DNA from: Cristatella mucedo
Lineage: Eukaryota > Bryozoa > Phylactolaemata > Cristatellidae
NCBI GenBank assembly: GCA_009760855.2
Contig: WPIO01000050.1
Coordinates: 1,242,001 to 1,306,000 of the forward strand
DNA length: 64,000 nt
Direction of reading: 5' to 3'
Notes under the pieces: generated by a model
What the model saw: the letters and a program-made list of their open reading frames with translations, nothing else
The model's database searches: none
Told to the model about the DNA's origin: nothing
Program-made: the position numbers and the translations under genes
In this document: one piece after another, positions 6,827-64,000 of the stretch
Layout: each line of letters begins with the position of its first letter
Numbering within the stretch: position 1 is the first letter of the stretch

Positions 6827-6994
6827 CTAGCTGATTAAACAGCCTCTTTTTGTATAGCGACGGATGAGCCTTTACGGCTATCACTACCGCTTGCAGTGGC
6901 GATAAAGAATCGCCCACCGCAGGAATCGAACCCACAGCCTCGGGACCGAGGTCGTAAAAGCAACCACCTTACCTAGTGTGCCATCATGGCTCAA
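6827..6994 (-). mobile_element. tRNA-derived SINE
   Basis: Reversed SINE. On the plus strand it starts CTAGCTGATTAAACAGCCTC and includes GCGATAAAGAATCGCCCACC. The B box complement is GGAATCGAACCC and the A box complement CCACCTTACCTAGTGTGCCA. It lies beside a second copy of the same family. Confidence 0.92.
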
Positions 6995-7059
6995 GGCGGC
7001 TCCGTCGATAAGCGCGACGGATTGACTTAAAAAGAATAATAAAATAAACAACGGTTGAG

Positions 7060-7222
7060 GTTGATTTAACAGTCTCGTTCGTATAGCGACAGAAGAGCCT
7101 TAAAGGCTATCACCACCGCTTGCATAAGCAATAAAGGATCGCTCAAAGCAGCATGGAATCGAAGCCACGACCTCGGGACCTTCGTCGTGCAGAGCAACTG
7201 CTTTATCCGGTGGTCATCGCGG
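7060..7222 (-). mobile_element. tRNA-derived SINE, second adjacent copy
   Basis: Same family and orientation as the copy ending at 6994, separated by about 65 bp of A-rich sequence. It is more diverged, with a degraded B box (GGAATCGAAGCC). Confidence 0.88.
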
Positions 7223-7597
7223 AATCATTAACGATGGTCGTTGAGGAGCTCCAACATCGAGAAGTCGCAACAGCAGCGACGACGGCGGCGGCGGCGGAGA
7301 CCACGTCGGCGGCAGTGTCGCAAAGCCATCGCTGCTACAGGGTCCTCATTTTTGTCTCGTCAGCGCTCGCTAATCACTGACTCGGAAACTGAACGCTCGA
7401 CCTGCGCCCCTGACCTGCACTGCGTGACCTACGCACCCGGACCTGCCCTCCCTGACATGCGATCCGAAATCGAACAGCCCTCGCCGATTATTATAGCACC
7501 AACGACCATTTATTATCGCACCGAGCACGAAAAGGTCAAACTATACGGTGCTCGCTGCTGGCTAGCTGCCGAATCGGCGAATCAGAGCGACGTCGCG
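7223..7597. other. Px1 3' flank with candidate polyadenylation signal
   Basis: Contains a (CGG)n-rich patch (about 7270-7300), relics of the 14 bp minisatellite unit, and a minus-strand AATAAA at 7509-7514. That signal lies about 85 bp beyond the Px1 stop, a suitable distance for its poly(A) signal. Confidence 0.5.
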
Positions 7598-8719
7598 CTA
7601 GCCGCTAGCCGCGGCGCATGGCTGCAGCTCGCCCGGCGCGTAGCCTCTAGTCGTGAGCGCGGGCCAGGCGCCGCAGAAGACCTTGACCCAGGCTCGCGAG
7701 CTGGCAGCAAAACGCTTGACGTGCGAGCGCGTGCTCGAGAACGGACAGCTCACGAGCGGCGCCGTCGGCTGGCCCGTCGCCATCGGGTCCTTTTCGGTGA
7801 TGTTGTAAGCCAGGGAGAAGTCGGAAGTGAGGAAAATGAAGTGATTCGTCGGCGAGTCTCTGCTGAAAGAATACATTACTGGCGTAACTTTGGAGGTATA
7901 GTTAAACGGCACCGCCGCCCACACGCTGGCCTTGTTGGCAATCGTTTGAAAGTAGGTGGTGTCGTTCGCCGCATCGGGAGTGAGGTCCCACTGCGCCATC
8001 ACCCTGCCGTTGAAGTCGCGCACGACGCCAAGCGAGTGCAAGCCCATGAGCGCCACGAACTGCTCGGCTGTTAGGCCGAGCTTGGCGGCGAACGCCAGGA
8101 CCTGCTCAATGGTCCAGCGGCGGTCCGGGTATACGACGACGGCGTCCGTGTACGGCGCCGTCTTGCAGTCGGCGCGACCAAACACGACCTGCACGCCGCA
8201 CACTTTCGAGTTATTCTGGTCGAACACGGCGATTTTCAGCGCCGCCACGGCCGAGGCCTGCCACAGGTCGGCGTGCGTTAGAGTGCAGTCGGCGAACTGC
8301 GGCGCCCGCAGAAGCCGGTCGCGGAAGTCCGACAGGGCGGCGATCGTGAAGTTGAGTCCGTTGTTTCCCGGGTTGTTGACGTTGACGCAGCCCTCGCAGC
8401 CGTAGCCGGCGCACGAGTGGAACGCCAGCCGCACGCTGCCGGCGATGAGAGGGCGGTACGTTCGGCCAAACGCGTCTTTGCCGACTGTGCTCTGGAGCAG
8501 GCTCGTAAGCTGTCGCAGCAGCACGACGACGTGCTGCTGCGACAGGCGCCCGCTGCCCGTCGCATCGCGGCAGCCGCCGGTCAGCGAACCGAAGCTTGAC
8601 GGCTCGTCGGCCTGGCCAGCGGCGGCGGCGGCAACTGTGCCGGCGAAGAGCGTCAATGCCACAGCTAGCGCCGCTGCGGCAGCCGCGCTGGCGGAGGCGC
8701 TCGGTCCGGCAGCGGCCAT
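7598..8719 (-). CDS. Px1, secreted class I-type heme peroxidase
   Basis: A 373-residue, single-exon member of the plant-type heme peroxidase superfamily (PF00141), which reduces H2O2 using heme. An Ala-rich signal peptide spans residues 1 to about 35, so the protein is probably secreted. The distal pocket reads RLAFHSC (Arg97, Phe100, His101). The proximal ligand is in ALMGLHSLG (His228), with Trp244 sixteen residues later and Asp300 in LTSDFSL. These fit the His-Asp-Trp triad of ascorbate and cytochrome c peroxidases, but the distal aromatic is Phe where those have Trp. DLWQASAVAAL matches the APX 'DxxQLAGVVAV' helix. Ten cysteines, including CAGYGCEGC, fit extracellular disulfides. Substrate unknown. 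The ATG is supported by the signal peptide and by alignment with Px2 and the two pseudogenes. Confidence 0.93.
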   Translation of the reverse strand: MAAAGPSASASAAAAAALAVALTLFAGTVAAAAAGQADEPSSFGSLTGGCRDATGSGRLSQQHVVVLLRQLTSLLQSTVGKDAFGRTYRPLIAGSVRLAFHSCAGYGCEGCVNVNNPGNNGLNFTIAALSDFRDRLLRAPQFADCTLTHADLWQASAVAALKIAVFDQNNSKVCGVQVVFGRADCKTAPYTDAVVVYPDRRWTIEQVLAFAAKLGLTAEQFVALMGLHSLGVVRDFNGRVMAQWDLTPDAANDTTYFQTIANKASVWAAVPFNYTSKVTPVMYSFSRDSPTNHFIFLTSDFSLAYNITEKDPMATGQPTAPLVSCPFSSTRSHVKRFAASSRAWVKVFCGAWPALTTRGYAPGELQPCAAASG

Positions 8720-8807: not shown

Positions 8808-8820
8808 TCTTATGTAGCCA
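8808..8820 (-). promoter_or_regulatory. Px1 TATA-like element
   Basis: On the minus strand this reads GGCTACATAAGAG, about 92 bp upstream of the Px1 ATG. The same GGCTACATAA core lies at a matching distance before Px2. The adjacent GTGCAAAGCG block is also shared between the two promoters. Confidence 0.6.
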
Positions 8821-8910: not shown

Positions 8911-8919
8911 TCAGCTCTC

Positions 8920-8962
<43 letters not shown>

Positions 8963-9019
8963 GTCTCTCTGTCTCTCTCTGTCTCTCTCTCTATCTCTCT
9001 CTCCCTCCTCCTCTCTCTC
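8911..9019. repeat. (TC)n tract with TCTG interruptions upstream of Px1
   Basis: About 100 bp of TC repeats broken by TG. In the Px1 direction it reads as a (GA)n tract starting about 190 bp upstream of the ATG. It could act as a GAGA-type element, but this is only positional. Confidence 0.9.
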
Positions 9020-9916
9020 ATCTTGGTGGCTTCTGCCCGGGAGCGCGGTCTCGCGCGGTGAGAGCCGTCGTCTGCATGGTGGCACAGGGGTGAGTTAGTC
9101 TGAAGTGGGCGCTTTCGCACCACGCAGCTGGGCTAGGAAGGCAGTGACTTGGTCTGGGGTGGCCCAGCCTCGCTCGTTCGGTGGCCCGGCTTCCGGCGGG
9201 TGTCAGCTCCCTCCTCCCATCCGGGGGTAAGGTTTTCTTGCACTTCACGACGCCAGGTCACGGGTTCGAGTCTCCGAGCGGGCAATCGTTCGTTACCCAA
9301 TAAAAGTTGGCTTGATAGCTGCTAAGTATCTTTTTTATGTACGAACCAGGTTACAAAATCGTAGTGATTTCGCATAGATGCTCTCTCACACAACAGACGG
9401 TAGAGGCACGGATCGGCCCCTGGCACGCCTCAGCAGTTCGGCAACCACCGTAATTCACAACAAAAAACATGTTTCGCGAAGCTGCTATATTGATTGCGTA
9501 ATAACACTGCGCTGAGCTAAACGTGCAGCCATAAAAGCTCACGCCACTTCGCACGGGAGTCCTCGTGCAATCAGGCTGCAGAGGTCACTGCCGCTACCTC
9601 AGTCAGCCGCCACAAGTTCAGCCGCAATCCAGCACTAAACTGCTGCATTTAGCCCAAGTTTTGATCGCACGTTCTGGGAACCGCGATTATGTGCCCATAA
9701 TATTTCGCGAAATTTCGACGAATATGGAGGTCCAAAAATGGGAAGGTATTTTTTATTGAAGCTTTGCTTGACCTAGTGCCTGTCTTTTGAAAATTACATT
9801 TGGCTCACCGTTCCGGCTGGACAAATTTCCCATTCAGCCTATGTTGAGGGCCTATATAGAGATTTAGTTCTCTAATAACACTACACAACCATCTTATTGT
9901 TATTATTATTATTATT
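9020..9916. other. Intergenic; isolated B-box-like motif
   Basis: No gene recognised. At about 9256-9282 the sequence GGTCACGGGTTCGAGTCTCC looks like a Pol III B box, but no matching A box or cloverleaf was found. It could be a relic of another tRNA-derived SINE. The end (about 9850-9916) carries a vestigial LINE-like tail with (TTA)n. Confidence 0.4.
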
Positions 9917-11107: not shown

Positions 11108-11279
11108 CTAGCTGATTTAAAAGCCTCTTTTTTTATAGCACGACAGGAGAGCATTAACAGCTATCCCCGACGCTTGCTGTGGCAACAAAGGATCGTCGAG
11201 CGCAGGATTCAAACCTGCGACCTCGGAACTTCGGAGTTCGTGAAAACAACCGCCTTACCTTGTACTACTACGCCGCCAC
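11108..11279 (-). mobile_element. tRNA-derived SINE
   Basis: Reversed SINE starting CTAGCTGATTTAAAAGCCTC, with B-box complement GGATTCAAACC and A-box complement CCGCCTTACCTTG. Substitutions throughout indicate an old copy. Confidence 0.88.

Positions 11280-12213: not shown

Positions 12214-12254
<41 letters not shown>
12185..12254. repeat. (TA)n microsatellite
   Basis: About 70 bp of nearly pure TA. It sits where the reversed LINE A copy should have its (AAT)n tail, so it probably replaced or grew from that tail. Confidence 0.93.
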
Positions 12255-12255
<1 letters not shown>

Positions 12256-12256
<1 letters not shown>

Positions 12257-13085
12257 TCGCTGCAAAGTGAAATGCAATTGAATGGTAAGTAAAATCATGC
12301 TTGAAAAACAAACAAAATGAATAACATAGTTAGGGGTGACATGCACAGGGTCAGCATGCAAATTTGGTTAGTGGAAGCATGCACAGTGTCAGCACGCATA
12401 AGCACATCAAGGACGAATCACAGGAACCCGCTAAATGCTGTCCTAAATAGGTGTGTTTTTAAGTTCCTTTTAAATGTGATCAGGTCGGGGGATGTTCTGA
12501 CGCAGGTCGGGAGGTAGTTCTAGGCTGTGGGAGCATACGAACTAAATGCACGGTCTCCAAAGGATTTAAGGTTTGTACGAGGTATTTGTAGACTGTTGGA
12601 TTCCGAAAAGCGGATGGTACGATGCTTGGCCTGATGGGGTAGTAGATCTCAGAGATAGGCTGGAGCCATAGAATGAAGGGACCTAAAAGTGAGCGACAAA
12701 ACCTTGAAGTCAATCCGTTGCTTGACTGGTAGCCAGTGCTGGTCGGCGAGAAGTGGTGTAATGAGGCAACTGCGACGCTCATGACAGACAAGCCTAGCTG
12801 CGTAGTTTTGCACCGGCTGCAATCGCCTGATTGCACATGCCGGTAGAGCAGCGAGCAGTGAGTTGCAGAAGTCGAGACGGGAGGTCACGAATGTGTGGAC
12901 CAACTTAGATGGCATATCCTTATCTAAACAAGCCTGAATTTTTACCAACGTTATGAAGCTGAAAATAGACAGATTCGACTGTGGAGCTGATAATGTCGTC
13001 TAACGAGAGGTCGCTTCGGAATATGACACTTAGATTTCAAGCTCATTCAACTGGACATATGCTGGCAGAGCCAATTTTGAGTTGG
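12256..13085 (-). mobile_element. LINE A, 3' third
   Basis: Reversed copy covering the 3' UTR and the RT C-terminal region, including LDFCNSLLAALPACAIRRLQ and HWLPVKQRIDFKVLSLTFRS. It continues to the sequence for the region before SSTVKSAYFQLHNIAK and breaks off at about 13085. Two moderate open frames remain. It lacks the hairpin tail, which is replaced by the TA repeat. Confidence 0.92.
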
Positions 13086-26057: not shown

Positions 26058-27119
26058 CTAGGCTGTGGGAGCATACGAGCTAAATGCACGGTCTCCAAAG
26101 GATTTAAGGTTTGTACGAGGTATTTCTAGACTGTTGGATTCCGAAAAGCGAGTGGTACGATGCTTTGCCTGATGGGGTAGTATATCTGAAAGGTAGGCTG
26201 GAGCCATAGAATGAAGAGACCTAAAAGTGAGCGACAAAACCTTGAAGTCAATCCGTTGCTTGACTGGTAACCAGTGCAGGTCGGCGAGAAGTGGAGTAAT
26301 GTGGCAACTGCGACGCTCACGACAGACAAGCCTAGCTGCAGAGTTTTGCACCAGCTGCAATCGCCTGATCGCACATGCTGGTAGGCCAGTAAGCAGTGAG
26401 TTGCAGAAGTCGAGACGAGATGTCACGAATGCATGGACCAACTTGGACGTGGTATCCTTATCTAAACAAGCCCTAATTTTAGCAATGTTATGAAGCTGAA
26501 AATAGGCTGATTTGACTGTGGAGCTGATGTGGTCGTCTAACGAGAGGTCGCTTTGGAATATGACGCCTAGATTTCGAGCTGATGCAACTGGAGATATGCT
26601 GGCAGAGCCGATTTTGAAAGTCAGCCTTTCCAATTTCTGAATAACACTAGGTTTGCCCATAACTAGTAAGTTAGTTTTATCATCGTTTAGTTTTAGAAAA
26701 TTTGCTGCCATCCATGATCGGATGTCATCAATGCATGCAGCAAGTGAGTTGAGAGAATTTGAGGTGCTCGAAGGCTGGGAGGGATCAAAGCAAAGGTACA
26801 ACTGAGTGTCATCCGCATAGAAGTGAAAGCCTAGATTGTGCTTGGCAATCACATCAGCAAAAGGGAGAGTATAAACGGTGAAAAGGACCAGACCTAGCAC
26901 AGAGCCCTGAGGTACTCCATATTTTAGAGGTACTTCAGATGATCTTTGTCCATTCACGTCAACACTCTGGAGTCTCCCACTGAGATAGGACCTGAACCAC
27001 TGCAGAGCAGTGCCAGTGATGCCCAGGCGAGATGAGAGGCGCTCTAGAAGTACTTTGTGATCGATGGTATCAAAAGCTGCCGAAAGATCGAGCAAAACAA
27101 GAAGAGACACTCTACCCAT
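26058..27119 (-). pseudogene. LINE A reverse transcriptase, C-terminal two thirds
   Basis: 353 open codons from LLVLLDLSAAFDTIDHKVLL through YGVPQGSVLGLVLFTVY and FHFYADDTQLYLCFD, with intact catalytic Asp residues, to the C-terminal region with HWLPVKQRIDFKVLSLTFRS. A frameshift separates it from the N-terminal part, and it ends slightly early (SSYAPTA) compared with the copy at 59.2 kb. Confidence 0.92.
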
Positions 27120-28405
27120 GTCTGCATTCCTAATAGGTCGTTGTATACCCGAAGCAATGCTGACTCTGTGGAGTGATTAGCTCTAAAGCCAGACTGGAAC
27201 TTACTAGCAAGGTGTGAGGTTTCGATATACGAGTTCAGCTGGTCTGCCACGACCCGTTCCAGTGTCTTTGATAGGATTGGTAGAAGGGAGACTGGGCGGT
27301 AGTTGCTTAAGTTCTCTTGGTCTAGTGTAGCTTTCTTGAGAAGTGGCCTGACTACAGCTTTTTTGAAAGGTGCTGGGACCTGACCTGAGGCTAATGACAT
27401 ATTAATGATGTAGGTTATACATGGCAGCAGCAGATCAATGCAACGTAGGAGCAGGACAGTGGGAATAGGGTCCAGTGGACTTGTTGTCTTCTTTGATTGA
27501 GATACGAGCTTTAGGACTACATCACTAGTGACCTGTTTAAATGCAGACATTGAGGCGCAGCCAGGAACCGAGGAACAGCATTCTAGTGGCAAGGTTGTCA
27601 TCGCAGGGATGGATTCCCTGATTTTGTCTATCTTCTGCACAAAGAATCGAGAGAAGCGATCGGCTAGATCATCACAAGGATCATCAGGTAAGGAGCTAAC
27701 CTGGGAACGGTTGAGGAGATGGTTTATTGTCGACATCAGCATTTTTGGATTGTGCATCTGTGATTCAACAATGTTTCTATAGAAGCTAGACTTAGCCTTT
27801 GCTAGGATCGATTGGTACGACCTACAGTAGTCTTCATATGCCTGTCGATGGACAGTCAGTCCGGATCTTTTGTATGCCTTTTCAAGCTTTCGTTTAGTAG
27901 ACTTGGCTAGTTTAATGTCTGTGGTAAACCATAGGCCGTCTGGGCGGGGGGGCACAGTGCGCTTTGTCAAAGGTGCAAACTCGTCGAGCGTGTCAGCTAG
28001 TGTCGTGTTGTAGCAATCTACCAGTGATGACAGATCGAAGGGAGGACTGAGCAGCAGAGGCGAAGCAGATATGCTCGCACGGACAGCATCGATGTCAAGG
28101 GTCTTGAGGTTTCGCGATTCACAGGTTATTTTAGAGGAGAATGTGGGCACACACTGTAGATTGAATGAGATCTGCATGTGGTCAGATAAGCAGGATTTGG
28201 TGATAATTGGTGATGACAAAGTGCAGTTGTATGAGAAAATCTGGTCGAGTTTGTGACCCTTGATGTGAGTAGGGCACGCCATGCACATGAGCCACAAGAG
28301 ACAATGAGTCAGTCGATGCACGAAATTCGGTGCTGAAGGTCTCCGACAAGTTATCAAAGTGAACGTTGAAATTACCCATAACGAGGAAGGATCGATTTCT
28401 TGCAC
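27044..28405 (-). pseudogene. LINE A endonuclease C-terminus to RT N-terminus
   Basis: 453 open codons: endonuclease end (GHKLDQIFSYNCT, CLSDHMQISFNLQ), a long linker with TKRKLEKAYKRSGL and SSFYRNIVESQ, and RT fingers (AVVRPLLKKATLDQENLSNY, SGFRANHSTESALLRVYNDL). It then shifts frame before the palm. The Met at 28405 is not the native start. Confidence 0.9.
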
Positions 28406-36739: not shown

Positions 36740-36993
36740 GCCCATCCCCCGCCTCTGCCGCTGCCGCTGCCGCCGCCACTGCCGCTGCCGCTGCCGCTGC
36801 CCCAGCTGCCGCTGTCCCAGCTGCCGCCGCCGCTGCCACGTCGCGGCCGCCTCTCTAGCGATCGCGAACTTCATTCGGCGTGCCTCGCCACCGCCACCGC
36901 TGCGCCGCCAAGCCGTGGGCTAAGCAGCGCCAACGCTCGACCGAGCGCCGCGGCGGCGGCGGCGGCGGCGGCGGCGCTCGGTCGAGCGGCGGC
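36740..36993 (-). pseudogene. Px3 pseudogene, 5' remnant of a peroxidase
   Basis: The minus strand opens MAAARPSAAAAAAAAAALGR, matching the Px1 start MAAAGPSASASAAAAAALAV. The 5' UTR just before it (CGGACGGTCGGTGGCGCCGG on the plus strand) matches the one before Px2. The rest is a (CTGCCG)n-rich expansion (about 36750-36840) with no peroxidase domain: no distal or proximal His motif. It is a truncated gene start still joined to its promoter. Confidence 0.7.
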
Positions 36994-37660
36994 CATTCGG
37001 ACGGTCGGTGGCGCCGGGACAAGCGCAACCGAGGCGACGGGCAATGCGACGTCGAATGCGGCTCGGCGGCTTGACCCTCGACCGCTTACGTTGGCAGCCA
37101 CGGGTGTCAAGTGGCTGACGTCAGCTGTGCCCTCTGGAGCAGCGTCTTAGCACGCCCGTGCGCTCTGAGACGATTGATGCATGGTGTCGAAGCCTTCATT
37201 TGCTTTCATAGTAGCTAGCTCTCACCTAGAGCGGGCACCGCTGCCGCTGCCTTGTGCTACTTATCTAGCCGATAGCTACGCACGTCAGCTCTGGCGCAGC
37301 CGCTTAGCACAAACTCTGCGGCGATTGATGCTGTCTTTGCCAGAGTCTTTGTTCGATTTCAGCATTTCGTGATTGCGCTCGGAGCCGACGTCAGCACGCA
37401 CCAGCCGGCTCCGAAGCGTGCAAGCGACTCGAAGCTCGACTGCTAGAGACGCCGAGGCGGCGGCGCAATGCACGAAGCAAGCCAGCGCCTCGTCCTGCAG
37501 ACGAACTGTTTAGCGAAGGCAGAAACACGTCACCATGGTCGCCTGCAGCATGCTCCAGACGACACCCGATTAGCTCTGCGACACGTGATGCATCGCCGCC
37601 AGCCGATTCTACTAACCAGTGGCCCTTAGTGTTCATGTAGGCGCATTTTCGTGCTTGTCG
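36994..37660 (-). promoter_or_regulatory. Peroxidase promoter module of Px3 (segment III)
   Basis: Matches the region upstream of Px2: CRE TGACGTCA at 37116-37123, CACGCCCGTGCGCTCTGAG, ATTGATGCATGGTG, CTTTCAT. It contains two diverged ~170 bp units, each with GACGTCAGC or CACGTCAGC, GGCGCAGCCGCTTAGCAC, GATTGATGC and TTTGTTCGATTTCAGC-like blocks. The ATG of the conserved small ORF is at 37468, but its frame is lost. Confidence 0.62.
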
Positions 37661-43716: not shown

Positions 43717-45534
43717 TTAGCCGCTGGCCACGGCGGTAGCAGGCAGCAGCACACTCGACGCGTAGCCTCTGGTCGTGAGTACGAACCAGGCGCCGCAGAA
43801 GGCCTGGGCCCAGTCCGTCATGCTCGCCGCGAAGCGCAAGACGTGCGAGCGGGTGCTCGAGTACGGACAGCTGTCGAGCGGCGCCGTCGGCTGGCCCGTC
43901 GCCGTCGGGTCCTTTTCGGTGATGTTGAAGGTCAGGGAGAAGTCAGAAGTGAGGAAAATTAAGCTGTTATCCGGCGCATCTTTGCTGAACGAATACATTA
44001 CCGGCGTCGAGTTGGACGTGTAGTTGAACGGCACAGCCTTCCACTGCTTGGCCTGGTTGGCGATAGTTTGAAAGTAGGTGGGGTCATTCGCCACATCGGC
44101 ACTGTGGTCCCACTGAGCCATCACCCTGCCGTTGAAGTCGCGCACGACGCCGAGCGAGTGCATGCCCATGAGCGCCACGAACTGCTCGGCCGTCAAGCCG
44201 AGCTTGGTGGAAAACGCAAGCAACTGGTCAATGGCCCAGCGGCGGTCCGGGTACGCGATAATGGCGCTCGTGTACGGCGCCGTGTCGCAGTCCGTGCGAC
44301 CGAACAGGACCTGCAAGCTGCACACGCTCGTGTTCTGCGTGTTGAGCGCCGAGTTTTCCAGCGCCACGACGGCCGCGGCCTGCCACAGGTCGGCGTGCGT
44401 GAGAGTGCAGTCGGCGAACTGAGGCACCTGCAGGAGCTGACTTCGGAAGTTCGACAGGGCGGCGATGGTGATGTTGAGCCCGTTGTTTGACGGGTTGTTG
44501 ACGTTGATGCAGCCGCCACAGCTGTCGCCCGCACACGCGTGGAACGCCAGCCGCACGCTGCCGGCGATGAGGGGGCGGTACGACGCACCTAAGGCGTTGG
44601 CGGCGAGCGCGCTCCTGAGAAGGATGTCGAGCTGCTGCTTCAGCACGGTGACGTGCTGCTGCGACAGACGCCCGCTGCCCGTCGTGCTTTTACAGCCGCC
44701 GGTCAGCGAGGTGAAACCCGACGGATTGGTCAGCCCGGTCGTGGAGGCGGCCTTGGCCGGTCCGGTGGTGAGTGCAGCAGTGATCGGCCTGGTCGTGGAC
44801 ACAACAGTGCTCGGCCCGGTCGGGGATGGAGCCTTGGTTGGCCCGGTCGTGGTCGTGGACGCGGCCTTAGCCGTGGTCGTGGACGCTACTGTGGCCGGCC
44901 CGGTCGCGGACGGAGCCTTGGTCGGCCCGGTCGTGGTCGTGGACGCGGCCTTAGCCGTGGTCGTGGACGCTACTGTGGCCGGCCCGGTCGTGGACGGAGC
45001 CTTGGTCGGCCCGGTTGTGGTCGTGGACGCGGCCTTAGCCGTGGTCGTGGACGCTACTGTGGCCGGCCCGGTCTTGGACGGAGCCTTGGTCGGCCCGGTC
45101 GTGGTCGTGGTCGTGGACGCGGCCTTAGCCGTGGTCGTGGACGCTACTGTGGCCGGCCCGGTCGCGGACGGAACCTTGGTCGGCCCGGTCGTGGTCGTGG
45201 ACGCGGTCTTAGCCGTGGTCGTGGACGCTACTGTGGCCGGCCCGGTCGTAGACGGAGCCTTGGTCGGCCCGGTCGCAGTGGTGGACGCGGCCTTAGCCGT
45301 GGTCGTGGACGCAGTAGCGGCCGGCCCGGTCGTAGACGGAGCCTTGGTCGGCCCGGTCGTGGTCGTGGACGCGGCCTTAGCCGTGGTCGTGGACGCTACT
45401 GTGGCCGGCCTGGTCGTGGACGGAGCCTTGGTTGGCCTGGCGGCGGCGGAGGCGGCTGGCCCCGTGCAGAGTGCCAACGCCAAAGCCAGAGCAGCCGCGG
45501 CAGCCACCCCGGCGTTATGTCGAACGGCGGCCAT
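43717..45534 (-). CDS. Px2, secreted heme peroxidase with mucin-like stalk
   Basis: 605 residues, single exon. A hydrophobic signal peptide spans residues 1 to about 30. A Thr/Pro/Ala/Lys-rich stalk spans about 33-270, made mostly of seven ~28-residue repeats (TTTAKAAS, GPTKAPS, TTGPATVAS) rich in potential O-glycosylation sites. The peroxidase domain spans about 275-605. Key residues: distal Arg328, Phe331, His332 in RLAFHAC; proximal His459 in ALMGMHSLG; Trp475; Asp531 in LTSDFSL. This is the same mixed pocket as Px1, with which the domain aligns along its whole length. Probably cell-surface or mucus-associated; substrate unknown. ATG supported by signal peptide and shared 5' UTR. Confidence 0.93.
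   Translation of the reverse strand: MAAVRHNAGVAAAAALALALALCTGPAASAAARPTKAPSTTRPATVASTTTAKAASTTTTGPTKAPSTTGPAATASTTTAKAASTTATGPTKAPSTTGPATVASTTTAKTASTTTTGPTKVPSATGPATVASTTTAKAASTTTTTTGPTKAPSKTGPATVASTTTAKAASTTTTGPTKAPSTTGPATVASTTTAKAASTTTTGPTKAPSATGPATVASTTTAKAASTTTTGPTKAPSPTGPSTVVSTTRPITAALTTGPAKAASTTGLTNPSGFTSLTGGCKSTTGSGRLSQQHVTVLKQQLDILLRSALAANALGASYRPLIAGSVRLAFHACAGDSCGGCINVNNPSNNGLNITIAALSNFRSQLLQVPQFADCTLTHADLWQAAAVVALENSALNTQNTSVCSLQVLFGRTDCDTAPYTSAIIAYPDRRWAIDQLLAFSTKLGLTAEQFVALMGMHSLGVVRDFNGRVMAQWDHSADVANDPTYFQTIANQAKQWKAVPFNYTSNSTPVMYSFSKDAPDNSLIFLTSDFSLTFNITEKDPTATGQPTAPLDSCPYSSTRSHVLRFAASMTDWAQAFCGAWFVLTTRGYASSVLLPATAVASG
44797..45438 (-). repeat. 84 bp coding minisatellite of Px2
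   Basis: Seven units of 84 bp (one lengthened by 6 bp) plus partial ends encode the stalk. All length changes are multiples of three, so the frame is held. Units are very similar in DNA, indicating recent homogenisation and probable copy-number variation between individuals. Antisense Gly/Arg- and Val-rich frames are artefacts. Confidence 0.93.
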
Positions 45535-45599
45535 TAGGACGGTCGGTGGCGCCGGCGATGAGTGCGACCAAGACAGCAGGCAGCACCTTGAATGCCGCT

Positions 45600-46141
45600 C
45601 GGCTGCAGCCGACGGCAGTTTATGTAGCCAACCGCGGGTGCAAAGCGGCTGACGTCAGCTCTGCCCTCTGGCGCAGCCCCTACTACGCCCGAGAGCTCTG
45701 CCGCGACTGAAGCGTTGACCATTGACGCCAAAGACTTTATTCGCTTTCATCGTCTCGCGCTTCCCTTCAACCTGGAGCGAATGCTACCACCGCCGCCGTG
45801 GGCCACTTATCAAGTCACGTAGCTGTGCACGTCGGCTTAGGCGCAGCCGCTTAGCACTCCAACACAATCTGCGACCATTGATGCAGTGCACCAGAGTCTT
45901 TGTTCGCTTTCAGCTTCGCCAGCCCCGGACCTTGATCTGACGTCAGCACGCCCGGCCGGCTCCGAAAAGTGCAAGTGACGTGACTCGCGGCTGCTGGAGG
46001 CGCGGACGTGGAGCGATGCACGAAGCAAGCAAGCTAGCGCCTCGTCCTGCTGGCGAATCGTTTATCGCAGGCAGAAACGAAGCCACGGTTGCCGGCAGCA
46101 TGCCTCACAATTCCCAATCAGCTGTGCTACACGCGAGGTAA
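45600..46141 (-). promoter_or_regulatory. Px2 promoter with TATA-like box and two CREs
   Basis: In the Px2 direction: CRE TGACGTCA at 45938-45945, a second at 45650-45657, then GGCTACATAA (TATA-like) at 45621-45630, about 90 bp before the ATG. Two diverged ~170 bp units (sharing GGCGCAGCC, GCGACCATTGATGCA and CTTTRTTCGCTTTC-type blocks) make the module internally duplicated. CREs suggest CREB/ATF-type control; this is motif evidence only. Confidence 0.65.
46016..46141 (+). CDS. Small ORF conserved in peroxidase promoter modules
   Basis: 41 codons opening MHEASKLAPRPAGESFIAGR and ending at a TAA exactly at the junction with the Px4 pseudogene. It shares the APRPAGExxIxGR core and ATG position with ORFs at 22376 and 30188. 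It runs divergently from Px2. Coding status unproven. Confidence 0.3.
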   Translation: MHEASKLAPRPAGESFIAGRNEATVAGSMPHNSQSAVLHAR

Positions 46142-46502
46142 TATTTCTGACGGCGACGCAGCCGCTGTAGCCGTCGCCGGCACAGGTGCGGCTGGCTTTT
46201 GGTGCGCGCGCCGGCCGTGAGCTGGCGGAACTCGATGCCAAACGCGTCCTCTTGGCCGAACTGCTCAAACTGGAGGTCGAGCAGTCACAGCAGCACGGCG
46301 CAGCGCTGCTGTGACAGACGCCAGCCGCCAGTCGTGCTGCGGCAGCCGCTGGTAAGAGAGTTGAACGCCAACGGTGGCTGGTCGGCGGCCCTGCCCGAGC
46401 TCGACCGGCATGGCCCAGCCCGGGCCAGCCTCAGCACGAGAGCTCAAACTCGGCAGAGGCGACCGCAGAGGCCGCTGGGCGGTGTCGAGCCGCGGCAGCC
46501 AT
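46142..46502 (-). pseudogene. Px4 pseudogene, N-terminal half of a peroxidase
   Basis: Starts MAAAARHRPAASAVASAEFE at 46502. In broken frames it then carries the equivalents of SLTGGC, GRLSQQ and the CAGDSCGGCINVNN block (here CAGDGYSGCVAVRN). The distal His is lost (SRTCAG replaces FHACAG). Several stops and frameshifts. It ends where the Px2 promoter module begins, so it stands head-to-tail upstream of Px2. Confidence 0.78.
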
Positions 46503-58085: not shown

Positions 58086-59228
58086 ATGGTAATTCCCTTT
58101 TGGCGGGGCTACCGAAGAAATTCGTCTTGGCCACTGCAGCTGAAGATAACAATGGCTGCAAGGCTACTTCACAAATCTCAGAGGTTTGATCATTTTGACA
58201 ATTCTTTGCTGAAAGAGTTAGGATGGCTTACATGGTTGATCAACGGATACAGACCTCTAAAATATGGAGTACCTCAGGGCTCTGTGCTAGGTCCGGTCCT
58301 TTTCACCGTTTATACTCTCCCTCTCGCTGATGTGATTGCCAAGCACAATCTAGGCTTTCACTTCTATGCGGATGACACTCAGTTGTACCTTTGCTTTGAT
58401 CCCTCCCAGCCTTCGAGCACCTCAAATTCTCTCAACTCACTTGCTGCATGCATTGATGACATCCGATCATGGATGGCAGCAAATTTTCTAAAACTAAACG
58501 ATGATAAAACTAACTTACTAGTTATGGGCAAACCTAGTGTTATTCAGAAATTGGAAAGGCTGACTTTCAAAATTGGCTCTGCCAGCATATCTCCAGTTGC
58601 ATCAGCTCGAAATATAGGTGTCATATTCCAAAGCGACCTCTCGTTAGACGACCAAATCAGCTCCACAGTCAAATCAGCCTATTTTCAGCTTCATAACATT
58701 GCTAAAATTAGGCCTTGTTTAGATAAGGATACCACGTCCAAGTTGGTCCATGCATTCGTGACATCTCGTCGCGACTTCTGCAACTCACTGCTTACTGGCC
58801 TACCAGCATGTGCGATCAGGCGATTGCAGCTGGTGCAAAACTCTGCAGCTAGGCTTGTCTGTCGTGAGCGTCGCAGTTGCCACATTACTCCACTTCTCGC
58901 CGACCTGCACTGGTTACCAGTCAAGCAACGGATTGACTTCAAGGTTTTGTCGCTCACTTTTAGGTCTCTTCATTCTATGGCTCCAGCCTATCTTTCAGAG
59001 ATACTACCCCATCAGGCAAAGCATCGTACCACTCGCTTTTCGGAATCCAACAGTCTAGAAATACCTCGTACAAACCTTAAATCCTTTGGAGACCGTGCAT
59101 TTAGCTCGTATGCTCCCACAGCCTGGAACTCCCTCCCGACCTGCATCAGAACATCCCCTGACCTGACCACATTTAAAAGAAACTTAAAAACATACCTATT
59201 TAGGACAGCATTTAGTGGGTCCTTGTGA
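58086..59228 (+). pseudogene. Chimeric open frame across a LINE B/LINE A junction
   Basis: 380 codons. About the first 56 are LINE B sequence read out of its native frame; at 58252 the frame enters LINE A's RT (PLKYGVPQGSVLGPVLFTVY, YADDTQLYLCF, HWLPVKQRIDFKVLSLTFRS, AFSGSL). The RT lacks its fingers and the DLSAAFDTID motif, so it is not a working enzyme. The start codon is fortuitous. Confidence 0.85.
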
Positions 59229-62729: not shown

Positions 62730-63768
62730 ATAATAATAATAATAATAATATTGCACTTGATAAAGCGCCCTCAGCGAACTTAATCTCTTTCTAGGCGCTT
62801 TACATTTGCTGCAAAGTGATACGCAATAGAATAGTAAGTAAAATCATGTTTGAAAAACAAACAAAATGAATAACATGGTTAGGGGTTACATGCACTGGGT
62901 CAGCATGCAAATGTGGTTAGTGGCAGCATGAACAGTGTCAGCACGCAGAAGCACATCGAGGACGAATCACAAGGACCCACTAAATGCTGTCCTAAATAGG
63001 TATGTTTTTAAGTTTCTTTTAAATGTGGTCAGGTCAGGGGATGTTCTGATGCAGGTCGGGAGGGAGTTCCAGGCTGTGGGAGCATACGAGCTAAATGCAC
63101 GGTCTCCAAAGGATTTAAGGTTTGTACGAGGTATTTCTAGACTGTTGGATTCCGAAAAGCGAGTGGTACGATGCTTTGCCTGATGGGGTAGTATCTCTGA
63201 AAGATAGGCTGGAGCCATAGAATGAAGAGACCTAAAAGTGAGCGACAAAACCTTGAAGTCAATCCGTTGCTTGACTGGTAACCAGTGCAGGTCGGCGAGA
63301 AGTGGAGTAATGTGGCAACTGCGACGCTCACGACAGACAAGCCTAGCTGCAGAGTTTTGCACCAGCTGCAATCGCCTGATCGCACATGCTGGTAGGCCAG
63401 TAAGCAGTGAGTTGCAGAAGTCGAGACGAGATGTCACGAATGCATGGACCAACTTGGACGTGGTATCCTTATCTAAACAAGGCCTAATTTTAGCAATGTT
63501 ATGAAGCTGAAAATAGGCAGATTTGACTGTGGAGCTGATGTGGTCGTCTAACGAGAGGTCGCTTTGGAATATGACACCTAGATTTCGAGCTGATGCAACT
63601 GGAGATATGCTGGCAGAGCCAATTTTGAAAGTCAGCCTTTCCAATTTCTGAATAACACTAGGTTTGCCCCTAACTAGTAAGTTAGTTTTATCATCGTTTA
63701 GTTTTAGAAAATTTGCTGCCATCCATGATCGGATGTCATCAATGCATGCAGCAAGTGAGCTTCTTAAG
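62730..63768 (-). mobile_element. LINE A, young 5'-truncated copy, inverted
   Basis: (AAT)n tail at 62730-62750, hairpin, 3' UTR, and an open RT C-terminal part (SLAACIDDIRSWMAANFLKL to AFSGSL) ending at about 63768. Nearly identical to 58.43-59.46 kb in opposite orientation. The first few codons of the open frame (MISLLR) are flanking sequence. Confidence 0.95.
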
Positions 63769-64000
63769 AGTGAAATCAAGCCACGGTTATCGCCTGACTA
63801 CCAGATAATTTTTCTCCGGACTTAACTATATTGCAAATATATCAAGACGCTTTTCCTTTGGCCAATGAGAAGATGAATAGAGTGAGAAATAACTTTCCGC
63901 ACGATGCAACGTCTCTAGGCTTATAACGACATATTTTCGCATCATTCAACGTCATAAAAAACTCTCGCAGCTGTTACTGAACTTCATCATACTAGGCTGC
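63769..64000. other. Intergenic, nothing recognised
   Basis: Short unique sequence to the window end. Confidence 0.4.

Follow-up and report, generated by a model that had tools for sequence, protein, structure and literature searches.

An expanded family of probably secreted, intronless heme peroxidases in Cristatella mucedo pairs a distal Phe with a proximal Trp

Introduction

Secretable PF00141 peroxidases have been described in metazoans and other unikonts under the name of 'putative ascorbate peroxidases', among them AqAPx of Amphimedon, CaroAPx1 of Caligus and the APX of Hydra viridis (PMC4232752, PMC4420034). Trees published with 490 and 500 sequences place this secretable metazoan clade ahead of the secreted classes, and a change from Trp to Phe at the distal position is reported on the side of the ascorbate peroxidases (PMC4232752, PMC4420034). 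An explicit list of pocket residues was not found in the published descriptions of the clade in these two papers, and its electron donor is described as still unverified (PMC4232752). Two PF00141 putative ascorbate peroxidases are reported among the Hydra transcripts that are specific to the basal disc, and adhesive polymerisation or an antioxidant role is discussed for peroxidases there; the Hydra proteins XP_002161794.1 and XP_012561209.1 are named for this tissue (PMC5080974). On the plant side, APX-R proteins carry a published signature that includes Phe41 and is without Arg172 (PMC8069737).

Whether the radical resides on the porphyrin or the proximal Trp has been studied in CcP, APX, LMP and engineered forms (PMC8907084, PMC8317151). 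According to the published account, the factors bearing on a Trp radical are the absence of a cation about 8 Å from the Trp and the presence of Met230 and Met231, with shielding by the Trp211 region and, in LMP, a Cys as further factors; a cation site engineered into CcP destabilises the Trp radical (PMC8907084). Phenol oxidation is reported to be faster in Trp51Phe CcP and Trp41Phe APX, and a Trp51 analogue that donates no hydrogen bond gives CcP a 64-fold higher guaiacol kcat without abolishing the Trp191 radical (PMC8317151). Here we analyse a window of 64,000 nucleotides (the whole stretch of DNA under study) from the bryozoan Cristatella mucedo, in which two members, Px1 and Px2, of an expanded, intronless Px family are found.

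Two peroxidase genes in the window

Px1, a heme peroxidase of 373 residues, is encoded on the minus strand at 7598–8719 by an uninterrupted open reading frame with an ATG start and a stop. Its paralogue Px2, of 605 residues and with the same pocket, is encoded by an open frame on the minus strand at 43717–45534. Both match PF00141 in the Pfam scan with E values of 3.5e-21 (Px1) and 6.4e-21 (Px2) and bit scores of 76.5 and 75.7, the cutoff being 27, and their cores are 71% identical. A chance open reading frame is ruled out for Px1 by the Pfam match and the paralogues. The initial annotation had spoken of an 'animal-type' protein, a label that is not borne out, because the only Pfam match is PF00141, of the plant/fungal/bacterial-type superfamily. 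In the NCBIfam scan of four family proteins no meaningful name was obtained: Px1 gave 0.084 to an unrelated mutase, the paralogue L011 gave 3.1e-06 to the C-terminal part of KatG, and two of the four were without a match. Pattern scans of viral and genome contig collections returned 87 and 70 matches, none of which was confirmed as a relative.

Residues 1–35 of Px1 (8615–8719, minus strand) form an N-terminal hydrophobic leader, a probable signal peptide by a hydropathy rule. Residues 34–262 of Px2 (44749–45435, minus strand) stand out by composition (Thr 37%, Ala 21%, Pro 12%, Ser 10%) and by a period of 84 nt in the DNA behind them, with one step of 90, and this stretch reads as a mucin-like stalk. 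The 84-nt minisatellite occupies 44706–45599 within the Px2 frame. It opens long frames on the opposite strand at 44465–45652, which are most likely a by-product of the repeat. Nine cysteines are common to Px1 and Px2 at the same offset. Each protein has five N-glycosylation sequons; three coincide (Px1 positions 123, 273 and 306), a fourth pair is off by one residue (169 versus 170), and one in each is unmatched.

A paralogue family in the genome

In the genome from which the window is taken (572 Mb, 688 contigs), at least 34 matches to Px1 are found at E 0.001 or better. Px1, Px2 and two other long open frames share a stretch of about 96 kb on a single contig. We examined 32 loci, of which 28 have a Px1-matching frame of 180 residues or more, and kept the 23 that are full-length. 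The five partial or damaged frames left out of the tree are L018, L020, L024, L027 and L028; those that reach the Trp column (L018, L020 and L027) all carry Trp (3/3), and where the distal motif is recognisable it has Phe (L028) or Leu (L024). PF00141 was above the cutoff in all 10 of the other 21 full-length members that were scanned, and L014 has one further Pfam match, below the cutoff.

The distal Arg, the distal Phe, Asn119, the proximal His, Trp244 and Asp300 (Px1 numbering) are each present in 23/23 members, and the distal His in 22, being Ser in L015. Cys103, Cys108 and Cys185 are likewise found in all 23, Cys325 in 22 and Met225 in 19. To be noted, the set holds near-copies (L013/L023, L002/L003 and L016/L017), so that a count of 23/23 does not amount to as many independent events. 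By a simple hydropathy rule, 20/23 members have a Met followed by a hydrophobic leader (not recognised in L003, L006 and L015), and the family is probably secreted. Two paralogues have particular architectures. One of 806 residues (L010:184-2601) has a long Thr/Ala-rich C-terminal tail with a hydrophobic end and is perhaps membrane or GPI anchored. The other, with Ser for the distal His (L015:1474-2670), has no clear leader and is otherwise intact; it is perhaps a non-enzymatic or altered form.

The heme pocket

The pocket residues first assigned to Px1, namely Arg97, Phe100, His101, His228, Trp244 and Asp300, are indeed found at these numbers. In three MAFFT modes they align on R48, W51, H52, H175, W191 and D235 of CcP, respectively, and the MnP counterparts of Phe100 and Trp244 are F45 and F190. 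The distal motif R97-L-A-F100-H101 is encoded at 8417–8431, proximal His228 at 8036–8038 and its partner Asp300 at 7820–7822, all on the minus strand. By hhalign of the 23-member family profile against single references, the posteriors are 0.9997 for His228 on CcP H175 and 0.97 for Asp300 on D235. Trp267 (7919–7921, minus strand) takes the place of CcP Trp211 with a posterior of 0.95 and is Trp in 22/23 members.

Trp244 itself was proposed to be the proximal Trp, and the alignments agree: it occupies the CcP Trp191 site in all three MAFFT modes and with a profile posterior of 0.94. The values are similarly high against the other class I references (0.98 for the Trp of pea APX and 0.90 for that of E. 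coli KatG). Against class II they are 0.65 for MnP Phe190 and an unsure 0.49 for LiP Phe193. The class III comparison is also unsure, at 0.47 for HRP and 0.57 for ATP A2, where hhalign picks another residue than MAFFT does; the class III references have an insertion ahead of the Trp244 column. A misalignment of Trp244 is ruled out by the three alignment modes and the posteriors, and by alignment Trp244 is the proximal Trp. The pairing of a distal Phe with a proximal Trp is thereby confirmed for Px1 and Px2, and it is kept in 23/23 full-length paralogues; the Phe/Trp pocket is therefore a fixed family trait. The accompanying statement that class II and III enzymes have Phe at both sites fails for two of the three class III references, which have Leu in the Trp244 column. 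An AlphaFold2 model from the two aligned core sequences of Px1 and Px2 reached a mean pLDDT of 36.6, too low for a pocket structure.

Placement among the peroxidase classes

Px1 and Px2 show what is expected of the superfamily, with PF00141 above the cutoff, the distal Arg/His and the proximal His/Asp. Set against class I, the proximal Trp is present throughout the 23 members, but the classical distal Trp is Phe in every one of them. Trees were built with eight references, namely CcP, APX and KatG of class I, MnP and LiP of class II, and HRP, ATP A2 and soybean seed-coat peroxidase of class III. In the tree from the L-INS-i alignment, the family forms a single clade (93/95) with class I apart (94/87), and it stands outside class II (MnP and LiP) and class III (three references), each supported at 100/100. 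A grouping of class III with the family in this tree is weak (84/62) and absent in the two other runs. Without KatG, or with E-INS-i, the family (95/97 and 97/97) lies between class I and a joint class II and III (61/67 and 92/86). Two of the three trees thus show this intermediate position, one of them with weak support, and the L-INS-i tree does not; eight references and the long branches that the tree program flagged do not suffice to fix the exact branching order.

In the AU test the family joined with CcP alone (p 0.021) or with APX alone (p 0.023) was disfavoured; joining the family with class II (p 0.25), or class II with III (p 0.31), was not rejected. It had been expected that Px1 and Px2 would branch near class I and not inside class II or III. 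The second part stands, since the family is outside both secreted classes, but it is not in class I either by the AU test. Single-template profile scores in local mode are highest for CcP (176) and APX (143), followed by ATP A2 (89), KatG (83), soybean (82), HRP (80), MnP (73) and LiP (46). Seven PDB matches of Px1 are at E 0.001 or better, all of them class III chains; a class III query matches those seven chains at 1e-60 or better. The best two PDB matches of Px2 are also class III, with APX and CcP chains lower, at E up to 1. A class III placement from these matches is rejected, as the proximal half is class I-like and the profile scores favour CcP and APX, and membership of class II or III is rejected on the basis of the trees. 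Judged from the alignments and trees, the Px family is a lineage of its own, in none of classes I, II and III.

The proximal cation-site-like string

Trp244 opens the string W244-D-L-T-P-D-A-A-N252 (7964–7990, minus strand). Ser229, Asp245, Thr247 and Asn252 of Px1 fall on S174, D191, T193 and D198 of MnP, with posteriors of 0.95, 0.69, 0.82 and 0.83. We take Ser174, Asp191, Thr193, Thr196 and Asp198 of MnP to be the ligands of the class II proximal calcium site, which Ser229 together with Trp244-Asp-x-Thr/Ser-x-x-x-x-Asn in Px1 and Px2 would then resemble. In the Px1 clade Asp245 is found in 7/7 members, Ser229 in 6/7, Thr or Ser at 247 in 7/7 and Asn or Ser at 252 in 7/7, and Asp245 occurs in 0/16 members outside it. 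Other positions known from CcP are partly kept: in Px1 and Px2 Met225 lies on Met172 and Trp267 on Trp211, while Ile295 and Phe296 are found in place of Met230 and Met231, and Val233 at the place of LMP Cys197. Met at the Met231 place is present in 0/7 members of the Px1 clade and 14/16 of the others. The sister clades mostly keep the Met172, Met231 and Trp211 equivalents of CcP and never have Asp245.

Selection, broken copies and other features of the window

Over 333 codons of Px1 and Px2, dN is 0.19 and dS 0.35, giving a dN/dS of 0.54. The segment of residues 206–260, which contains the proximal His and Trp, is the lowest of six (0.079/0.345, dN/dS 0.23), and in residues 151–205 dN exceeds dS (0.265/0.170). 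Within the Px1 clade dN/dS ranges from 0.33 to 1.15 over 21 pairs; the top two values, 1.0 and 1.15, come from the very close pairs L003–L004 and L002–L004. Constraint on the Px genes is real overall, yet loose.

Sequence comparison finds a copy of the Px upstream region and leader at 36918–37588 (minus strand), with no peroxidase body found behind it, which we read as a gene copy that was truncated or recombined. At 46143–46419 (minus strand) tblastn found a remnant of another Px copy, broken into two pieces and with an in-frame stop. Further broken pieces are located elsewhere in the genome (C453:1190018-1190209, C453:1221291-1221488 and C517:8691-8957). Such pieces recur 1.3–1.4 kb 3' of L003, L004 and L002, and also 5' of Px2; the recurring arrangement of gene and broken piece suggests a joint duplication of both.

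A TATA-like element, GGCTACATAA, at 8810–8819 (minus strand) is common to the aligned upstream regions of Px1 and Px2 and lies 90–100 bases ahead of the Px1 ATG; its function as such is putative. The upstream sequence common to the two genes suggests that they would have arisen by DNA duplication and not by simple retroposition. A CT-rich simple repeat is found upstream of Px1 at about 8916–9020. Elsewhere in the window, reverse-transcriptase frames with RVT_1 matches in Pfam are present at 26058–27119, 27044–28405 and 58086–59228. By DNA repeat and similar protein text, 62967–63779 and repeats such as 12252–13080 are more copies of the same element, and together these constitute a LINE-like family. 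Short interspersed repeats at about 6840–7230 and 11110–11260 look tRNA-like by eye; ARAGORN found no tRNA in the window, and Rfam gave no match there at the gathering threshold.

Proposed function and alternatives

We favour, with moderate confidence, the reading that this expanded, intronless and probably secreted PF00141 family, apart from classes I, II and III, carries out extracellular phenol or tyrosine oxidation through the standard peroxidase cycle. The catalytic set of Arg97, His101, Asn119, His228 and Asp300 is present in Px1 and Px2. In such a cycle Arg97 and His101 would split H2O2, and His228 with Asp300 would hold the heme. Phe100, unlike Trp, can give the ferryl oxygen no hydrogen bond, so the ferryl should be readily reactive towards phenols. 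The likely job would be to oxidise phenols or protein tyrosines outside the cell by one electron at a time, serving cross-linking or defence in a mucus or matrix in which the Px2 stalk would retain the enzyme. Trp244 would most likely serve in a structural role or as an electron relay. For Px1 and Px2 a porphyrin radical seems more likely than a stable Trp radical, since a class II-like cation site appears to lie next to Trp244. Px1 and Px2 would most likely catalyse H2O2-dependent extracellular oxidation of phenols or tyrosines and not of ascorbate. By analogy, the family may represent a natural version of the Trp51Phe/Trp41Phe design, suited to extracellular phenols or tyrosines.

The name of the metazoan clade (PMC4232752) would imply secreted ascorbate peroxidases, and the second-highest profile score of the family is that to pea APX. 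However, Px1 and Px2 have Asn at the place of the ascorbate-binding Arg172, and 0/23 members have Arg there, which rules out a canonical APX. Arg172 is described as critical, with APX-R lacking it and using other donors (PMC8069737), and ascorbate use by the metazoan clade itself is given as unverified (PMC4232752), so we consider secreted ascorbate peroxidases very unlikely. It might also be argued that the Px copies are in decay and no longer serve as enzymes, given the several broken copies, the dN/dS of about 1 in the two very close pairs and the Ser in place of the distal His of L015. Against this, the catalytic residues of Px1 and Px2 are intact and both frames open, and among the six segments the one that contains the proximal His and Trp shows the strongest constraint; decay is highly improbable here.

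A CcP-like mechanism, in which the second equivalent of compound I resides on Trp244 as a cation radical and is fed by an extracellular protein partner, is harder to dismiss but still rather unlikely for Px1 and Px2. Trp244 sits on CcP Trp191, CcP gives the top profile score, and Met225 and Trp267 occupy the places of Met172 (19/23 members) and of Trp211 (22/23), which helps seal the redox Trp in CcP. The CcP radical moreover survives the loss of the Trp51 hydrogen bond (PMC8317151). But Ile295 and Phe296 are at the Met230/Met231 places and Val233 at that of LMP Cys197, and Ser229, Asp245, Thr or Ser247 and Asn252 lie where a cation site would be, a site that destabilises the radical when built into CcP (PMC8907084). 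The cation-site argument is not conclusive, because LMP forms the radical despite a cation. The local residues of Px1 and Px2 thus appear to bear on a Trp radical both ways, more against it than for it. With Met231 mostly kept and no Asp245, the sister paralogues fit the radical idea better than Px1 and Px2 do. We tentatively raise, as a doubtful proposal, that the Px1 clade would form porphyrin radicals and the sister clades extracellular CcP-like Trp radicals, perhaps with a secreted protein donor; if true, the two clades are a ready-made natural test of what sets the location of the radical.

Comparison with known systems

The Px family shares with yeast CcP the proximal Trp, the Met172 and Trp211 equivalents and the top profile score; it differs by the distal Phe and, in Px1 and Px2, by the missing Met230/Met231, the cation-site-like residues, the leader and the cysteines. 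Engineered CcP Trp51Phe and APX Trp41Phe (e.g. APEX2) have a distal Phe and keep the proximal Trp, as Px does (PMC8317151), whereas in Px the pairing is natural, fixed and set in a cysteine-rich, probably extracellular scaffold. Class II MnP and LiP resemble Px in the distal Phe, in secretion (predicted for Px) and in the Ser229/Asp245/Thr247 cation-site-like string, but have a proximal Phe, and where MnP has Asp47 next to the distal His, Px1 has Ser and Px2 has Ala. With class III HRP the likeness lies in the distal Phe and in the Cys spacing His+2/His+7 (HRP Cys44/Cys49); in the class III references, by contrast, the Trp244 column holds Phe or Leu and is preceded by the insertion. Plant and algal APX-R proteins have Arg38, Phe41, His42 and His163 with no Arg172, a signature also present in Px1 and Px2 (PMC8069737). 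APX-R is described as chloroplast-targeted in green photosynthetic eukaryotes (PMC10669542), whereas Px has a leader and extra cysteines.

The secretable metazoan clade stands in print between class I and the secreted classes, and the Px family, too, lies outside I, II and III in our trees. Judged from the published trees, the placement of the Px family is compatible with that clade, and the Phe/Trp pairing is in keeping with a type of secreted animal peroxidase known from earlier work. The proposal of an 'unusual subgroup' therefore holds in part: the family is its own lineage, but the superfamily, the secretable metazoan clade, the distal Trp-to-Phe change and an APX-R with Phe41 and without Arg172 are already published (PMC4232752, PMC4420034, PMC8069737). 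The extent of the expansion and the mucin-like stretch are observations on the Px family, the metazoan clade being compared by its published description. What looks new is modest and consists of how far the family has expanded, its mucin-like extensions and the splitting of radical-controlling residues between paralogous clades. The Px family thus adds a case of plant/fungal-type peroxidase expansion, with mucin-like extensions, in Cristatella mucedo, and its fixed Phe/Trp pocket with varying cation and Met positions provides natural paralogues that differ at the determinants of the radical site.
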